Shown here: in pieces, positions 5,934 through 36,815 of the stretch
Layout of the letters: every line of letters starts with the position of its first letter
Position numbering within the stretch: the first letter of the stretch is position 1
Assembly (NCBI RefSeq): GCF_001657475.1
Contig: NZ_LXEY01000021.1
Span: forward strand, 62,001 to 126,000
Direction of reading: 5' to 3'
DNA length: 64,000 nt
Origin: Enteractinococcus helveticum
Lineage (GTDB): Bacteria > Actinomycetota > Actinomycetes > Actinomycetales > Micrococcaceae
Program-made: the position numbers and the translations under genes
The notes under the pieces: model-generated
What the model saw: only the letters and a program-made list of their open reading frames with translations
Database searches by the model: none
What the model was told of the DNA's origin: nothing

Positions 5934-6446
5934 ATGTCTATGCGGCAAACATTCAAGGCATGCTTCAACATCAGTTTCATTTGCTATGTATTGGCACTGA
6001 TCATGCAGCTCTTTATTGGAGTTATGTTTGTCGGCATGAGGGGTCACGCCTTGGCTGACGTGCCGTTGGTCGAATACCTCAGAAGCTCGCCGAACTTTGT
6101 GCCATTTCGGACGATTCGTACCTATGCGGTGTCCATTGTGGACGAAGATTTGAGTACCAGCATTGCGATAAAGAATCTGCTGGGCAACGTGATCTTGTTT
6201 TTACCAATGGGAATCTATCTGCCGTACTACATCAAAAATATCAAGAGTACCGGCCGATTCACTTTGTCGATGATCGCATTGTTGTTCTTGGTTGAAGTCA
6301 TCCAGCTCGTGACGCAAAGAGGCAGCTTTGACATCGACGACTTCATTCTCAACATCGTGGGCGCCTTCTTGGGGTATGGTTTTTGGAATTCGAAAGTAGT
6401 GCAGAAGATGCTCGTACCACAGGCAGCCGCGCGGCAGTCTCTGTAG
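5934..6446 (+). CDS. VanZ-like membrane protein
   Basis: A 170-residue protein with four to five hydrophobic helices and the VanZ-family pattern: an NLLGNVILFLPMG helix around residues 82-95 and a second conserved block with FDIDDFILNIVGAFLGY near 140-155. VanZ-like proteins confer low-level teicoplanin resistance in some cases, but most have no proven function. An AGGGG site at 5921-5925 supports the ATG at 5934; a second in-frame ATG at 5940 is possible. Base composition is visibly more A+T-rich than ctaA and ctaB on either side, and codon choice differs, so horizontal acquisition is likely. It stands alone, flanked by terminators on both sides. Confidence 0.8.
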   Translation: MSMRQTFKACFNISFICYVLALIMQLFIGVMFVGMRGHALADVPLVEYLRSSPNFVPFRTIRTYAVSIVDEDLSTSIAIKNLLGNVILFLPMGIYLPYYIKNIKSTGRFTLSMIALLFLVEVIQLVTQRGSFDIDDFILNIVGAFLGYGFWNSKVVQKMLVPQAAARQSL

Positions 6447-7155: not shown

Positions 7156-8148
7156 TTATGGTGCGGTGACCATGTCTCCCATGAGTGGTGCCCCGACGAA
7201 GGGGTCCACGGCAAGCGCGACGAAGATCAACGTCAGATAGGTAATGGACAGGTGGAAGACCCGCATGGCCTTCTTATCAGTGAAGTCCGGGCGCTGGGAG
7301 TCACGATAGAGTTTGTGGGCTTCGTAGATGAACCAACCACCCGAAACTGCAGCAGTTGCGGTGTAGACGATGCCTGCCCAACCCATGGGAAGTAACAGCA
7401 GTGAGAAAATCACGGTTGCCCAGGTGTAGAGCACAACCTGCGAGGAGACCCGGCGCGATGTGGCGATGGCACCTAGCATGGGAACATCGACTTCTTGGTA
7501 GTCCTCTTTGTACTTGAGGCTCAACGGCCAGTAGTGCGGAGGCGTCCACAGGAATATAACGACAAATAGGACGACGGCGGGCCATTCTACGGTGCCGCGG
7601 ACTGCGGCCCAAGCGATCAGGACCGGGAAGCACCCGGCCAGGCCGCCCCAGATGATGTTCTGTTCGGTGCGGCGTTTCAGGATGATTGAGTAGATGACAA
7701 CGTAGAAGAAAATTGCGGCAACACCAAAGGCGGTAGCCAGCCAGTTGGTACCCACCGCCAGGATGGCGATCGAAGCTGCGGTCAACACCCACGAGAACAT
7801 CAGGGCTTCGCGTGGGGTGACTTCACCGGTCACCAGCGGACGGTTTTTGGTCCGCTTCATATGTTGATCAATGTCACGGTCGATGTAGCAGTTAAAGGAA
7901 CCGGATGCTCCGGCCGCCAGTGCGCCACCGACCATGGTGGCCAAGATGGTCCAGAGGTCAGGCCATCCTCGGTGAGCAAAAATCATGGTTGGCAGCGTGG
8001 TGACCAACAATAGTTCGATGACTCGGGGTTTCGTGAGTGCCAGATACGCTTTGGCCTTACGTCGAAACCCGATTTTCTCTCGAGTCGGCTCCGAAGCAGA
8101 AGTGAGCGATGTGCTCTGTTTGGTTGCGGACTCTAGCGATGTTGACAT
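7156..8148 (-). CDS. ctaB: Protoheme IX farnesyltransferase (heme O synthase)
   Basis: A 330-residue UbiA-family prenyltransferase that adds farnesyl to heme B to give heme O, the substrate of CtaA. About nine membrane helices are visible. The first Asp-rich motif appears as [15 protein letters not shown], which carries the conserved N-x3-D-x3-D, and a second conserved block [19 protein letters not shown] lies near residue 200. The ATG at 8148 is preferred over the in-frame TTG at 8151 because GAGAG lies 5 bases upstream of it. The gene diverges from tkt, the usual arrangement in actinobacteria. Confidence 0.96.
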
Positions 8149-15312: not shown

Positions 15313-15939
15313 CTAGTTTGGGGTCACAATCTGGGAAGCGCCCGCGCGGGCGGCTTCGAAGCGTTTCTGGACGTCGGCCCAGTTGACGATGTTCCAGATG
15401 GCTTTGACGTAGTCTGGTTTGACGTTTTGGTAGTCCAGGTAGAAAGCGTGCTCCCACATGTCCAGCATGAATAGTGGAGTGGTTGCTACGGGGACACCGT
15501 TTTGTTGGTCGTAGAACTGTTCGATAACCAGGTTGCCACCGATTGGTTCGTAGGCCAGGATGGCCCAGCCGGAGCCCTGGATGCCCAGCGCCGCAGCGGT
15601 GAACTGTGCCTGGAAGTTGTCGAAGGAACCGAAGTACTCATCGATTGCAGCAGCGAGTTCACCGGTTGGTTTGTCGCCACCGTCTGGAGACAGGTTGTTC
15701 CAGAAGATCGAGTGGTTGGTGTGTCCACCCAGGTTGAATGCCAGGTCCTTCGACAGCTGGTTGATGTTGCCGAAGTCGCCGGCTTCGCGAGCTGCCGCGA
15801 GTTTTTCCAGTGCAGTGTTGGCACCGTTGACGTAGGTGTTGTGGTGCTTGGAGTGGTGCAGTTCCATGATGCGACCCGAGATGTGCGGTTCCAATGCACC
15901 GTAGTCATAGGACAGTTCTGGCAATGAATAAGTAGCCAC
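15313..15939 (-). CDS. sodA: Superoxide dismutase, Fe/Mn family (probably Mn)
   Basis: A 208-residue cytoplasmic superoxide dismutase. The four metal ligands are visible as His28 (ELHHSKHH), His76 ([10 protein letters not shown]), Asp160 and His164 (DMWEHAFY). A Gly-Gly before the second ligand and the QQNG segment near 145 match the Mn-type more than the Fe-type pattern. The GTG start has an excellent AGGAGG 6 bases upstream. It sits between whiA and pgk, where a gap gene would be expected, and has its own hairpin terminator. The call Mn versus Fe is inference. Confidence 0.95.
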
Positions 15940-30704: not shown

Positions 30705-30882
30705 CACCACGGCCAGAGTATTCTACACACCGGGCTCCCTCGCCTTCCGGTGTTTTCCACAACTGGTGCGGTGTGGCGAAGTTTTCCCCTAGCTGCTGCA
30801 CTCCTTGCACCGTTGCTTTCGGCGGTCGTTAGGCTGGATTCAACGCAACAGTACCCAGCCGGGTGACGGGGAGGTGAGCACC

Positions 30883-33009
30883 ATGGTGACGCGGTTACCG
30901 GATACCGAAGGCCTGATTTCTGACGCGGAACTTGATGCTCTCTCCCCTGGTGAACTCCAGGCCCTGGCATTACGCATCGTGCAAAAACAACAGCTCAAGC
31001 TATCAACCCCGGATGCCTACGATTCATTCGCTCGCCATACTTACGCGTCTGGAGCGGATTGGGGCACCGTCTGGCTGAACGACCCTGTCGAAGACCAGCA
31101 TGACGACGGCGCGGACGTTTCTGAGGGAAAACACGCGGGCCCCACACCGATACCACCGGATGAGTTCTTTAATACTCTGCCCGGGTTTGTGGATAATCTC
31201 GTCACCGCACGGCGTGTCCAAGACGCCATGATCGCTCGGCTCACGGGTTTCGCTGAAAAAGCGTATACGTTTGATCGGGACACCATGTTGGGTATCCCCG
31301 CCGAGGTGAATCTCCACAAGACTGGCAAGCGCTGGCTGGCGGATCGATTTCAACTCGAGACCCGCCAGATTTCCAAGTTCTATAACCGGGCAGCCCTAGT
31401 CACCGGCGATTTGGAAACCATCGACCGATTGGCCAAAGACCCGTTACTCCCCGAGATGGCGGCAGCCTATACAGCCGGTGAGATTCCATCCGAAAATATG
31501 GACCGGATGAGTCAAATTGCAAACCAATTTTTTGATTTCTACAACGCGGTGGGATTGAGCAAAGAGAATGCCAAAGAGATCCTAAAAACAATGGATCCGT
31601 TCTTCACCGACGCTGCCAAAGAGATGCGACCCCAAGAGCTGGCACAACAAGCAACGAAGTGGCTCAACCAAATCGCCCATATTGTGGATCCAGACGGGCC
31701 ACCACCAGAACAACGCCTGACCAAGGTCAAAAATTCGTTGACAACGCGCATCGTAAACGGCAAGCTCCACGTTAACATCATTACCGACGTCGTGAATCTT
31801 GAACTCATCGAAGCGTTGATTCTTGCAGGACTCAATTTCAAGGCCAACCAAGATAAGTTCCGGCAGGATGAGGAGCATCCCGAGGGCGATACCGCTGAAA
31901 CTGCCACAAATAACGACAGCGCGGAGTTCGACTCTCAGCCTGCATCCGCCTCCTCATCAGACACGTTCGACGACGATGCCGACGAGGAGGAAGATGAGGT
32001 AGGCCTTGATGGCTCGGAGTCAAGTACTGCAGATCGGAACGCTCAGGAACGCCTCGGAGACTTCCATCAGCGCATGGATGATGCGGTCAATGACGAAGAA
32101 ACGTTCATTGAGACCGAAGATGGCACCAAAATTTCTCGAGAGAAAGCTCGCAAACTGGATCCGCGGACTCGCGACGAAAAAGCCCACGATATCTTTCTGA
32201 CCATGCTCAAAGCCCAGGGGAAACGCTCCCCAGGTGCCGAAGGCATGGCGGAGTATAAACGGGCCCCCGCCATCTTATGGACTGTGATGGACTACGAAAC
32301 GCTGCTGCGCATTCACCGCGACCGATTGCCCCAGCAATATCATCTTGATGAACAGTTCACTCGCAGCCCCGGCATGGCTGGATATGACCCAGGACCGCCA
32401 AGGAGACTCGATCCTCTGGAAGCAATCGTTGATGAACATGTTCCACCGGGAACCACCGATCCAGAGAAATTCTTAGGTGCGGACCCCATCTTGGGCCGTG
32501 TGTGGCGCCGGAAGTCAACAGATCCTCCGGACGATCACGCTGATGTCGGCAGTGACGGAGCTGAACATCGCCGACCACAAGGTCATCCATATGTCTCACA
32601 CCGGTTTCAAACGGGAAGTATTTCTCCGGCGGCCGTACTGCAGGATCTCTGCGATGCCAAAATTGTCCCGGCGATCTTCAACCAGGGTGGTGTCCCGCTA
32701 TTTCTTGGGAAGGGAAAGCGCCTCTTTAGCGATCAACAGATCCTTGTTGCCGCCATGCTCGGCGGATGTCGTGGCCCCGGCTGTCGAGTCCCTCCGGTAT
32801 GGACTGAAGGCCACCATGGGATCTATTGGTTCCACGACGGTGGAACCAATACCACCAACCTCATCCTGTTATGCAATGCCTGTCATACCCATGTCCACCA
32901 AGGGGTCTGGACCCCAACATGGAATGACGACGGTGTCCTGTACTGGATCCCAGCACCATGGCTAGATCCCACCCAGACCCCGGTTCGAAATACCTACTGG
33001 GACGATTAG
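30883..33009 (+). CDS. DUF222/HNH endonuclease-like protein (13E12 family)
   Basis: A 708-residue protein. The middle and N-terminal parts match DUF222 (13E12 repeat) proteins, which are multi-copy in actinobacteria. The C-terminus holds an HNH nuclease core: CRGPGC, then EGHHGIYWFHDGG, NLILLCNACHTHVHQG, with the paired Cys and His residues expected to bind Zn and Mg. Between them is a strongly acidic, Ser-rich insertion (about residues 330-390). ATG at 30883 has GGGGAGG 8 bases upstream. The function is unknown; such genes spread by gene conversion or homing-like processes, but no mobility signals flank this copy. Confidence 0.88.
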   Translation: MVTRLPDTEGLISDAELDALSPGELQALALRIVQKQQLKLSTPDAYDSFARHTYASGADWGTVWLNDPVEDQHDDGADVSEGKHAGPTPIPPDEFFNTLPGFVDNLVTARRVQDAMIARLTGFAEKAYTFDRDTMLGIPAEVNLHKTGKRWLADRFQLETRQISKFYNRAALVTGDLETIDRLAKDPLLPEMAAAYTAGEIPSENMDRMSQIANQFFDFYNAVGLSKENAKEILKTMDPFFTDAAKEMRPQELAQQATKWLNQIAHIVDPDGPPPEQRLTKVKNSLTTRIVNGKLHVNIITDVVNLELIEALILAGLNFKANQDKFRQDEEHPEGDTAETATNNDSAEFDSQPASASSSDTFDDDADEEEDEVGLDGSESSTADRNAQERLGDFHQRMDDAVNDEETFIETEDGTKISREKARKLDPRTRDEKAHDIFLTMLKAQGKRSPGAEGMAEYKRAPAILWTVMDYETLLRIHRDRLPQQYHLDEQFTRSPGMAGYDPGPPRRLDPLEAIVDEHVPPGTTDPEKFLGADPILGRVWRRKSTDPPDDHADVGSDGAEHRRPQGHPYVSHRFQTGSISPAAVLQDLCDAKIVPAIFNQGGVPLFLGKGKRLFSDQQILVAAMLGGCRGPGCRVPPVWTEGHHGIYWFHDGGTNTTNLILLCNACHTHVHQGVWTPTWNDDGVLYWIPAPWLDPTQTPVRNTYWDD

Positions 33010-33091: not shown

Positions 33092-34399
33092 TTAATCACG
33101 AGATTCTGAATCTTCGTTGTCTTTTCCATTGGTATCCGGGGCAAGGACTGGACCGTCGGTGGTGACAATACGTTGTGACATCAACGCTGGGATGCCTCGA
33201 CGGTTGGCGTCTTCTAACCGGGTTTCGTGAGCGACTCGAATAATAGCCGACCACTGATCTTTATGTTCAATAAGTTCTTCAAGGTACCGGTGTTCGGTCT
33301 CTTGGGCTCGATGAGTCCAGAAATCCATCTTTTCGGCAGCTTCCTGACGTTGCTCTGTTGTGGCATCTTCTGGAAGCAGAGTGTAACGATGAGCAAACTT
33401 CTCGGCGTTTTGCAGTGCACGTAGCGCCTTGCCCTTCGGGCTGAGCAACGAGAAGGCAATGGTGATGACAAGGATACCGATAATGACGAGCAGCGAGAAT
33501 CCAGTGCTGATTTCGATCACCGGCACATCTTCGCCGTCGTTGATGAATGGCAGGTTGTTCTGGTGCAGTGCGTGCAGCATCAGCTTGACCCCGATGAATC
33601 CGAGGATCGCGGCCAAACCGTATCCAAGGTAGACCAGTCGGTCGAGCAGGCCGTCGATGAGGAAGTACAACTGACGCAGGCCCAGCAGCGCGAATGCGTT
33701 GGCCGTGAATACGATGTATGGTTCTTGTGTTAGTCCGAAAATAGCGGGGATCGAGTCAAGCGCAAAGATGAGGTCGGTCACGCCAATGGCGACCATGACA
33801 AGCAGCATCGGAGTAAACAGACGCTTGCCGTCCACACGGGTGACGATTTTGTCGCCGTCATAGTGCTCTGCTACTGGCAAGACTTTCCGGGCAAAACGGA
33901 CCAGTGCGTTATCAGCTTCAGATCCTGCTTCTTCCGCGGATGAGAACTCAGATTTGAGCTGTTGTCCGGCGAGCAGCAAAAGGAAAATACCGAAGATGTA
34001 GAACGCATCGGACCACCATTCAAGAATGGCGGCACCCAGCAGAATGAAAATGGTACGGCTGATGAGCGCAAACGTAATACCAAACAGCAGTACCTTTTGC
34101 TGGAATAGCCGTGGTACCGCGAAACTCGTCATGATGATCATGAACACGAAGAGGTTATCAACTGATAACGCCTTCTCTGTGATGAAACCGGCATAATATT
34201 CGATCGCATGATCCGTGTCGCCAAAGGCAAAGAACACGAGACCAAAAGCCAGCGCTAACCCAACATAGATGCTCGACCAAATCGCGGCCTCTTTGAGGGT
34301 GGGGGTATGGGCTTTCCGTACGTGGAAAAAATAGTCAAAGAGGACTAAACCGACAATGACTGCAATTGTGACAGCCCAAGTAAGCCCGGTAATCTCCAT
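33092..34399 (-). CDS. TerC/Alx-family membrane metal exporter (probably Mn2+)
   Basis: A 435-residue membrane protein with about nine helices in the first 320 residues. TerC-family acidic motifs are seen: EKALSVDNLFVFMIIMTSF and TDLIFALDSIPAIFGLTQEP, each with a paired Asp-Asn/Asp-Ser that probably handles the metal. The last 115 residues are a hydrophilic, helical cytoplasmic extension (FWTHRAQETEHRYLEELIEH…), longer than in many homologues. A yybP-ykoY manganese riboswitch lies in its leader, so Mn2+ efflux is the best-supported function. The name tellurite resistance is historical. Its expression should rise with cytoplasmic manganese. Confidence 0.92.
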   Translation of the reverse strand: MEITGLTWAVTIAVIVGLVLFDYFFHVRKAHTPTLKEAAIWSSIYVGLALAFGLVFFAFGDTDHAIEYYAGFITEKALSVDNLFVFMIIMTSFAVPRLFQQKVLLFGITFALISRTIFILLGAAILEWWSDAFYIFGIFLLLLAGQQLKSEFSSAEEAGSEADNALVRFARKVLPVAEHYDGDKIVTRVDGKRLFTPMLLVMVAIGVTDLIFALDSIPAIFGLTQEPYIVFTANAFALLGLRQLYFLIDGLLDRLVYLGYGLAAILGFIGVKLMLHALHQNNLPFINDGEDVPVIEISTGFSLLVIIGILVITIAFSLLSPKGKALRALQNAEKFAHRYTLLPEDATTEQRQEAAEKMDFWTHRAQETEHRYLEELIEHKDQWSAIIRVAHETRLEDANRRGIPALMSQRIVTTDGPVLAPDTNGKDNEDSESRD

Positions 34400-34439
34400 G
34401 AAAGGGAGTCCTTCCTAGTTTTTAGGTAACTTCAATTCC

Positions 34440-34537
34440 ACAAGTCTCTCCCCCGACGTAACAACGGGGTCCGTACCCGGCCGAACAACGGTGTTCGACG
34501 TGTTGACGTGTACGGAACTTCTGGGATACTCCCTTGT
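34440..34537 (-). ncRNA. yybP-ykoY manganese riboswitch in the terC leader
   Basis: Read on the minus strand, the leader starts ACAAGGGAGTA and ends GGGGGAGAGACTTGT, whose ACAAG and CTTGT pair as the closing helix. The conserved GGGAGTA loop after the closing stem and the GTCAACACG element match the yybP-ykoY class, which senses Mn2+. Between them is a helix CGAACACCG / …GTTCGGCCGGGTACGG with paired arms. The class is typically found upstream of TerC/Alx genes, exactly as here. About 40 bases separate it from the terC start. Whether control is by termination or by ribosome access cannot be told; no intrinsic terminator is seen before the ATG. Confidence 0.85.
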
Positions 34538-34546
34538 TCTGCACAG

Positions 34547-34555
34547 ACTATATCA
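34547..34555 (-). promoter_or_regulatory. Extended -10 promoter of terC
   Basis: On the minus strand TGATATAGT gives an extended -10 element, with TATAGT at 34547-34552. Transcription would start about 7 bases later, right at the 5' end of the riboswitch, which supports both assignments. No good -35 is visible. Confidence 0.55.
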
Positions 34556-34611
34556 GGAAAATGTCCGTGGGAATGGTTGAAACCGAATGCAGTGGGCAAA
34601 AATACTGTGAA

Positions 34612-36756
34612 CTATGCGTGGCCTTCGCGCTTCATGTCGCGCAGCTCCTTTTTGAGCTCCGAAACTTCATCGCGCAGTCTGGCAGCGAGTTCGAAGTTGA
34701 GGTCCACGGCGGCCTGGTGCATCTGTTCAGACATTTGCTGGATCAGATCGGAAAGGTCCTTGGCCGGAACCGCAGCAAGCTTGGCAACCTTCTTGTCTTC
34801 CTCAGACATCGCCGATCGTTGTTGTTCCTCGGTGATCGTCGCAGTGTAACCGCGATTGCCCATTCCGTAGTCAAAGCCGGTCTTGATGCCGGCCATACCC
34901 GACATGAGATCCTGAGTATCGGCGTCTTCACGTGCCAGCTGGTCGGTAATGTCTGCGATGCGCTTCCGCAACGGTTGCGGATCAATACCGTGCTTCTTGT
35001 TGTGTGCAATCTGAATGTCCCGACGACGATTGGTCTCATCGATTGCGTACTGCATCGAATCGGTGATCTTGTCGGCATACATGTGCACTTCACCAGAGAC
35101 GTTACGTGCCGCACGTCCGATGGTCTGGATGAGTGACCGGTTCGAGCGCAGGAACCCTTCTTTATCAGCATCCAGAATGGACACCAAGGACACCTCGGGC
35201 AAGTCCAGACCCTCACGCAGCAGGTTAATACCAACCAGTACGTCAAAGACCCCTTTGCGCAGCTCCGTCATGAGTTCAACGCGGCGCAGGGTGTCGACGT
35301 CGGAGTGTAGGTATTGGACTTTGACCCCGTGTTCGACCAGGTATTCGGTGAGGTCTTCGGCCATGCGTTTGGTCAACGTCGTCACCAGCACACGTTCGTT
35401 GCGTTCTACGCGCAGGTTAATTTCATCCATGAGGTCATCGATCTGACCCTTGGTCTCTTTGACGACGATTTGTGGGTCCACCAGCCCGGTGGGTCGAATG
35501 ATCTGTTCAACAACGCCATCGGCCTGGCTGAGCTCGTAGGGCCCCGGGGTTGCCGACATGTAAACGGTTTGTCCGATGCGCTCCAGGAACTCATCCCATT
35601 TCAGCGGACGGTTATCGAGCGCTGATGGCAGGCGGAAGCCGTGATCCACCAGGGTTCGCTTCCGCGACGCATCGCCTTCGTACATGCCACCAATTTGTGG
35701 GACGGTGACGTGCGATTCGTCGATGATCAGCAAAAAGTCATCGGGGAAGTAATCCAGCAGGGTGTGTGGTGCGGAGCCGGCGGGGCGACCGTCAATGTGG
35801 CGCGAGTAGTTCTCAATGCCGTTGCAGTACCCCATTTGCTGCATCATCTCGAGGTCATACGTGGTGCGCATGCGCAGCCGCTGGGCTTCCAGTAATTTGT
35901 TCTGCGACTCGAGTTCCTGCAGGCGTTCGCGCAGTTCGTCTTCGATATCGCGGATCGCGCGGGCCATGCGATCGTCACCGGCAACATAGTGCGATGCCGG
36001 GAAGATGTACATTTCCTCTTCCTCACGAATGATGTCGCCGGTCAGCGGGTGCAGGGTTTGAATCGCGTCGATTTCGTCGCCGAAGAACTCGATGCGCACT
36101 GCAAGTTCCTCGTACATGGGAATGATTTCCACCGTGTCGCCGCGCACGCGGAAGGTCCCGCGGTGGAAATCGGCGTCGTTGCGAACGTACTGCATGTTCA
36201 CAAACTGGCGCAGGAGATCGTCGCGGTCGAGCATGTCGCCGAGTTTCACCGTGACCATTTGGGCGATGTACTCTTCGGGCGTCCCCAGACCGAAGATCGA
36301 CGAGACGGTGGCGACGACGATGGTGTCGCGGCGCGTCAGCAGCGCGTTGGTGGCCGAGTGGCGCAGGCGTTCAACCTCTTCGTTAATTGAGGAGTCTTTT
36401 TCAATGAACGTATCGGTTTGTGGGACGTAAGCTTCCGGCTGATAGTAGTCGTAGTACGACACGAAGTATTCGACGGCGTTCTTGGGCAGCAGATCCCGAA
36501 ACTCGTTGGCCAATTGGGCGGCCAGCGTTTTGTTCTGCACCAGCACCAGGCTGGGGCGCTGGAGTCGTTCAACAAGCCACGCTGCGGTTGCTGATTTACC
36601 GGTACCGGTGGCCCCCAGGAGTACGACGTCCTTTTCGCCACCTTCGATGCGCTCGGCGAGTTCGGCGATAGCTTGTGGCTGGTCGCCCGCCGGTTCATAC
36701 GGTGCTTCGACCTTGAACGGGGCAACGACGCGGTTAATCTCTCGAGCCATACTCAT
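34612..36756 (-). CDS. uvrB: UvrB, excinuclease ABC subunit B
   Basis: A 714-residue damage-verification helicase of nucleotide excision repair. Walker [10 protein letters not shown] is near residue 50; the beta-hairpin [10 protein letters not shown], domain II motif DESHVTVPQ and C-terminal helicase motifs [28 protein letters not shown] and IGRAARN follow. A UVR motif for UvrC binding ends the protein (about 670-705). Two upstream in-frame ATGs have no ribosome-binding site; ATG 36756 is chosen because a TAACAT box lies exactly 7 bases upstream and [14 protein letters not shown] matches relatives. It lies 60 bases downstream of coaE. Confidence 0.97.
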
Positions 36757-36769
36757 GCCCAACATGTTA
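36757..36769 (-). promoter_or_regulatory. Leaderless-type promoter of uvrB
   Basis: On the minus strand TAACAT (36764-36769) is followed by 7 bases and ATG at 36756, with no ribosome-binding site. No actinobacterial LexA box was found near it. Confidence 0.5.
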
Positions 36770-36815
36770 CGCCGGAGCATAACGGGTGACTACTTGTTCA
36801 CCCGCAGGCTAAGGA

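Follow-up and report, generated by a model that had tools for sequence, protein, structure and literature searches.

The window analyzed here, a 64-kb stretch of the Enteractinococcus helveticum genome, contains on its minus strand a leader (34537-34440) located between an extended −10 box, TGATATAGT (34555-34547), and a TerC/Alx-family gene encoding 435 amino acids (34399-33092); all positions given below for the leader and this gene are on the minus strand. The product of the gene, terC, matched the Pfam family PF03741 (TerC/Alx) with 158 bits and TIGR03718 with 348.5 bits, above the curated cut-off of 246.4 for the latter, in agreement with the original prediction of a TerC-family gene downstream of the leader. 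It is 38% identical to E. coli Alx over 295 amino acids and 83% identical to the TerC of the closest named locus (Micrococcaceae bacterium, L202), and the closest relatives of the genome among those compared are Micrococcaceae. The upstream gene (34612-36780), read from its sequence, is presumably uvrB, which places the leader between uvrB and terC. A large ORF (30805-33009, plus strand) is convergent with terC, and its Cys/His-rich C-terminal part is one that, by reading, we take to resemble an HNH-type nuclease domain.

The terC start codon, an ATG at 34399, is preceded by a likely Shine-Dalgarno sequence, AGGAAGGA (34416-34409). The promoter element was read in the sequence and is conserved, with TG[AG]TATAGTC occupying the same position in each of the nine leaders from the genus (L002-L010). 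A generic −35/−10 scan gave no match on the terC strand and no −35 box was found, so that the promoter call is supported by the −10 element and by how well it is conserved. Within the leader, GGGAGTA (34533-34527; GGGAGUA in the RNA) and GTCAACACG (34507-34499) accompany the closing arms, ACAAG (34537-34533) facing CTTGT (34444-34440); these elements and the extended −10 box, all of which had been named in the original prediction, are in place on the minus strand. They are real and more than chance. A loose pattern of the conserved blocks, GGGAGTATCC-N-CGTCANNACG-N-CCGG, has a single occurrence in the window and none in 100 shuffles.

A search of 197 genomes from the family detected TerC in every one, and the leader is present at 29 of the 30 best Micrococcaceae terC loci, the one exception (L028) having undetermined bases in its leader region. 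Twenty-eight leaders were aligned, and a covariance model, R1, was built from these alone. This alignment has 33 invariant positions, chiefly in GGGAGUAUCC, CGUCA, ACG, CCG, and GGAGAGACU, and standard pairs fill 91.8% of its pair cells, compared with 33.7-45.2% when the partners are slid. Its covariation score was 0.436 versus 0.217 in shuffles, a value reached by none of 500 shuffles, and 16 of the 29 pairs change on both sides. In the window, R1 matched 34542-34437 with 96 bits (E = 2.3e-21), a score on a trained sequence given that the window leader is one of the 28 on which it was trained, and gave at most 11.2 bits elsewhere. Among the 95 loci given, 94 hold matches, 95 in all, which are the relatives counted below.

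The whole aptamer, from P1 to P1 (34537-34440), is delimited by the R1 match and by covariation. The 5′ strand of P1, ACAAG (34537-34533), pairs with the 3′ strand, CUUGU (34444-34440), with covariation in the 28-leader alignment; P1 cells are paired in 100% of that alignment and in 96.8% of the wider set of relatives, with changes on both sides. P1 closes the L1 element GGGGAGUA, the class-defining feature, which is present in the window leader. The 5′ side of L1, GGAGUA (34532-34527), is found as GGAGTA in 95 of 95 aligned relatives, and its 3′ side, GAGA, forms together with the P1.2 3′ strand GGA a segment (34451-34445) that is invariant among the 28 leaders. The P1.2 5′ strand UCC (34526-34524) pairs with GGA at 34451-34449; in the wider set, 99.3% of P1.2 cells are paired, the first pair being seen as U-A, G-C, A-U, or C-G. 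The lower stem of P3 is formed by UCCGUAC (34516-34510) and its partner at 34476-34470, GUACGGA, which, on covariation and reading of the sequence, makes up a single stretch (34480-34470) with the L3 3′ side CCGG. The L3 5′ side, ACGUCAACACG (34509-34499), includes A34504 and has CGTCA in 94 of 95 relatives. Both the upper hairpin of P3, UCGAAC/GUUCGG (34498-34481), in which six of the seven pairs of the helix change on both sides among the 28 leaders, and the P4 hairpin, CCCG/CGGG (34468-34452), are covariation-supported, as are the P3 and P4 helices generally, in the 28-leader and wider alignments.

At the site of the P2 hairpin of the RF00080 model there is a short linker (34523-34516). The length of this P1.2-P3 linker is 6-8 nt in 85 of the 95 relatives, 9-11 nt in six, 4 nt in one, and 15-18 nt in three. 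A linker of 6-8 nt leaves no room for a hairpin; this branch thus lacks P2, so that P1/P1.2, P3, and P4 would meet in a three-way junction at its core. RNAalifold on the alignment preferred over P1.2 a small GGGA/UCCC hairpin (positions 10-13 with 17-20), which is unsupported because its pairs never vary apart from two broken cells. The wider set, in which P1.2 covaries, leans towards P1.2, as it was aligned to the proposed structure. Folding of the leader had been proposed as a check of the original prediction; the minimum-energy fold of the lone window leader differs from the aptamer, and its stability exceeds that of shuffles only modestly (z = −1.69, with 14 of 200 shuffles as stable).

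Another check that had been proposed, a match to the yybP-ykoY model RF00080, failed. RF00080 of Rfam 15 (class cut-off 45 bits) gave no match to the leader even at E ≤ 10 and nothing worth calling a match over the window and the whole genome, and at E ≤ 1 it matched none of 16 R1-positive loci, the window locus included; no other Rfam family matches the window leader either. The same model misses the E. coli alx leader (L051, 372-501), which the literature regards as a Mn riboswitch, so that its failure here reflects a limit of the model and is not decisive. On E. coli mntP it scored 41.6 bits, under its own cut-off. It was on account of these failures (at the window leader, at R1-positive loci, and at alx, with mntP below the cut-off) that R1 was built, and class membership was assessed with this new model.

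R1, whose training set contains no sequence from outside the Actinobacteria, recognized the E. coli alx leader with 36.5 bits (E = 1.1e-7 to 8.2e-7) in a match along the whole model. Applied to 19 loci found with RF00080, it gave E ≤ 5.3e-5 for four (L049, L032, L042, and L048); its match to E. coli mntP was weak (12.4 bits, E = 0.083). In the R1 alignments to alx and to the RF00080-found loci, L1, P1.2, L3, and P1 align with their counterparts, and P1.2 reads U-C-C/G-G-A in the window, with G-C-C/G-G-C in its place in relatives that have P2 and A-C-U/A-G-U in that of alx. The ligand-site letters are kept among the 95 relatives to the extent given above for GGAGTA and CGTCA. An unrelated conserved leader, such as a protein-binding element with a chance resemblance to a riboswitch, would fit the lack of any Rfam match but is very improbable, as R1 independently recovers alx and RF00080-found loci and the leader shares their metal-site loop letters and a covarying P1.2.

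Comparison with known systems places the leader more closely. It shares P1, L1 (GGAGUA/GAGA), P1.2, L3 (CGUCA), P3, P4, and the placement before metal exporter genes with RF00080 members, including those of solved structure from L. lactis and X. oryzae. It differs from them in P1.2, which is UCC/GGA here and GCC/GGC there, and in lacking the P2 hairpin and the four-way junction of the crystallized members. The alx leader, by reading of its sequence, lacks P2 as well and precedes a gene of the same family, but has a longer P4 region, a P1.2 of its own (ACU/AGU), and another expression platform, and belongs to another phylum. The class does not depend on P2: the S. pneumoniae mgtA riboswitch is described as a yybP-ykoY aptamer with a three-way junction (PMC9495176), a likeness by description, although it is transcriptional and controls a Ca/Mn ATPase, unlike what is proposed here. 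Another likeness, by listing, is the actinobacterial terC leader of C. glutamicum (cg2157), which a 2013 list classed as yybP-ykoY with a score of 49.13 bits from the then-current Rfam (PMC3890552). No paper on this riboswitch in Micrococcales was recognized in the open-licence PMC literature, a statement about that literature and not about print as a whole.

The leader is real and looks functional, and it belongs to a known riboswitch class, in a compact actinobacterial branch of the class that RF00080 does not recognize; the class is known and the members are new. The yybP-ykoY assignment of the original prediction held up, through the match between R1 and alx, covariation, the ligand-site letters, and gene context. 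Both this class and a TerC/Alx-type target are well supported by the comparative evidence, and the leader is very probably a Mn-sensing riboswitch upstream of a metal-exporter gene.

The distribution of the two models across genomes differs. At E ≤ 0.01, R1 found a match in at least 121 of the 297 genomes from the order and in at least 30 of 396 from the phylum. RF00080 found a match in at least 18 genomes of a 396-genome phylum sample, one of them above its cut-off, and the lists of R1-positive and RF00080-positive genomes have no overlap. All of these genome counts are lower bounds because scoring was confined to the few best candidates of a first look.

The genes downstream of the 95 matches encode TerC in 77 cases and a P-type ATPase in seven. 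Seventy-five matches had been found by the RNA model or by a DNA pattern and not through the gene; these precede TerC in 58 cases and a P-type ATPase in seven, so that 65 of the 75 are placed before an exporter or metal-homeostasis gene. The other ten comprise two HtpX-like M48 peptidases, one Na/Ca exchanger, one GreA/GreB-like gene, two loci with too little DNA, and four without a clear target. Two of the ATPases were scanned (L084 and L091), and both partial proteins matched PMR1-type calcium ATPases best, under the cut-off. The HtpX-like M48 membrane peptidase genes lie directly after the RNA at L106 (1596-1501, minus strand; P1.2 in the G-C-C/G-G-C form) and L166 (1061-954, minus strand), and an M48 peptidase is an unexpected target of a Mn-sensing RNA. 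The GreA/GreB-like gene is downstream of the match at L149 (2491-2383, minus strand), while the Na/Ca exchanger family gene follows the RNA of L115 (5456-5350, minus strand), a metagenome-assembled genome labelled Chloroflexi that may be contaminated. Tandem terC genes occur in several members of the family, and Brevibacterium daeguense (L176) has two riboswitch copies (6042-6160 and 7409-7515) ~1.4 kb apart, each before a TerC gene.

The conserved ligand-site letters and the downstream genes point to Mn2+ as the ligand. In L. lactis, the invariant L3 adenosine A41 (within UCAAUUC) is described as the Mn-specific contact, with L1 docking on L3 (PMC6754395), and A34504 is proposed as its counterpart in the window leader. 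Family knowledge further suggests Mn2+ export as the probable role of the window TerC, since efflux of Mn is reported for Alx of E. coli and TerC of V. parahaemolyticus (PMC13274385). Ca2+ is an alternative to be taken seriously: the same fold could have Ca2+ or a Ca2+/Mn2+ mixture as its physiological ligand, with TerC in another metal task such as the loading of secreted enzymes. For the S. pneumoniae mgtA aptamer, with its three-way junction, tighter binding of Ca2+ than of Mn2+ is reported (PMC9495176), PMR1/SERCA-like P-type ATPases follow the RNA in some relatives and a Na/Ca exchanger in L115, and TerC proteins of B. subtilis are described as helping to metallate exported enzymes (PMC10550928). 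We nevertheless consider this alternative improbable, since the adenosine behind the Mn-specific N7 contact has been retained (in CGTCA, as above), the downstream genes are mostly of the TerC/Alx type with its reported Mn efflux, and a GDT1-type antiporter is downstream of the RNA in one relative (L032). Mn2+ is thus the likelier ligand. A Nramp importer is encoded elsewhere in the genome, which makes Mn uptake possible and nothing more.

A link between the leader and a Mn-type sodA in the same window had also been suggested, and it comes down to proximity. The superoxide dismutase gene, with its DMWEHAFY signature (15313-15939, minus strand), is 17 kb from the leader, and a search of the 64-kb window with R1 found no second copy of the RNA, including before sodA. 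Lying in one 64-kb window does not indicate that sodA and terC are co-regulated.

How metal binding might reach terC is suggested by a second pairing. The segment ACUCCCUU (34409-34402) sits between the Shine-Dalgarno sequence and the AUG of terC and is complementary to AAGGGAGU of P1/L1; on this complementarity and on folding, it is the proposed partner that would block the ribosome-binding site (RBS) in the metal-free state. In all nine leaders of the genus, ACUCCCU(U) lies between the Shine-Dalgarno sequence and the start codon and complements A(A)GGGAGU of P1/L1, over 8 nt in eight of them and 7 nt in L010, and in L011, outside the genus, the pairing extends to 10 pairs with letters changed on both sides. 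When all 28 leaders were examined, the complement adjoined the start codon in 14 and was absent in the other 14, indicating that the platform is clade-specific; the shuffle values of this comparison lack independence among close relatives. When the window leader is folded without constraints, L1 pairs with the start region with a probability of 0.98. The platform folding, carried out on 18 of the 28 leaders, holds for part of them only, and the L1-RBS pairing probability was low in three members of the window's own genus (0.06 in L004, 0.22 in L005, and 0.08 in L010). Forcing the aptamer on the window leader carries a penalty of 8.6 kcal/mol in a model that covers secondary structure and has no terms for tertiary contacts or metal. 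With P1, P1.2, and an open L1 forced, the unpaired fraction of the spacer rises from 0.11 to 0.28, and in the same model the forced aptamer did not open the Shine-Dalgarno sequence (0.40 to 0.27 unpaired) or the AUG (0.56 to 0.41).

The slight opening of the RBS in this fold and the lack of a start-proximal L1 complement in half of the 28 leaders would also suit a Mn riboswitch aptamer that acts on transcription, via Rho or an unrecognized terminator, and L. lactis is reported to use antitermination (PMC11087558). This reading is unlikely, if by no means negligible, as a terminator scan found no T-run hairpins in 34380-34620 and the complement between the Shine-Dalgarno sequence and the AUG is maintained throughout the genus and, in its longer form, in L011. 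Clade-specific translational control is the likely mode, and in the window's clade the predicted pairing of ACUCCCUU with AAGGGAGU suggests that translation is turned on by Mn2+.

Under the proposed mechanism, the P1 5′ strand and L1 (AAGGGAGU) would pair in the metal-free state with ACUCCCUU near the terC start. Excess Mn2+ would bind where L1 (GGAGUA/GAGA) docks on L3 (CGUCAACACG), with A34504 as the specific contact, and would stabilize P1; this would free the region between the Shine-Dalgarno sequence and the start codon and so turn on translation of the TerC/Alx exporter. We hold the proposal as a whole, a P2-less Mn riboswitch of the yybP-ykoY type with a likely L1/start-region switch for TerC/Alx translation, to be highly probable. 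A tentative and more doubtful extension is that the P2-less actinobacterial branch is phylum-wide, that in the window's clade the start region competes directly for L1 and not only for P1.1, and that the three-way junction may shift selectivity towards Ca2+.

These results provide a probable metal assignment for a TerC gene. Their main value lies in exposing the gaps in the annotation of this class in Actinobacteria: RF00080 of Rfam 15 fails to see a large population of actinobacterial Mn riboswitches (one of 396 phylum genomes above its cut-off), and Rfam-based annotations thus understate the RNA control of manganese in this phylum.
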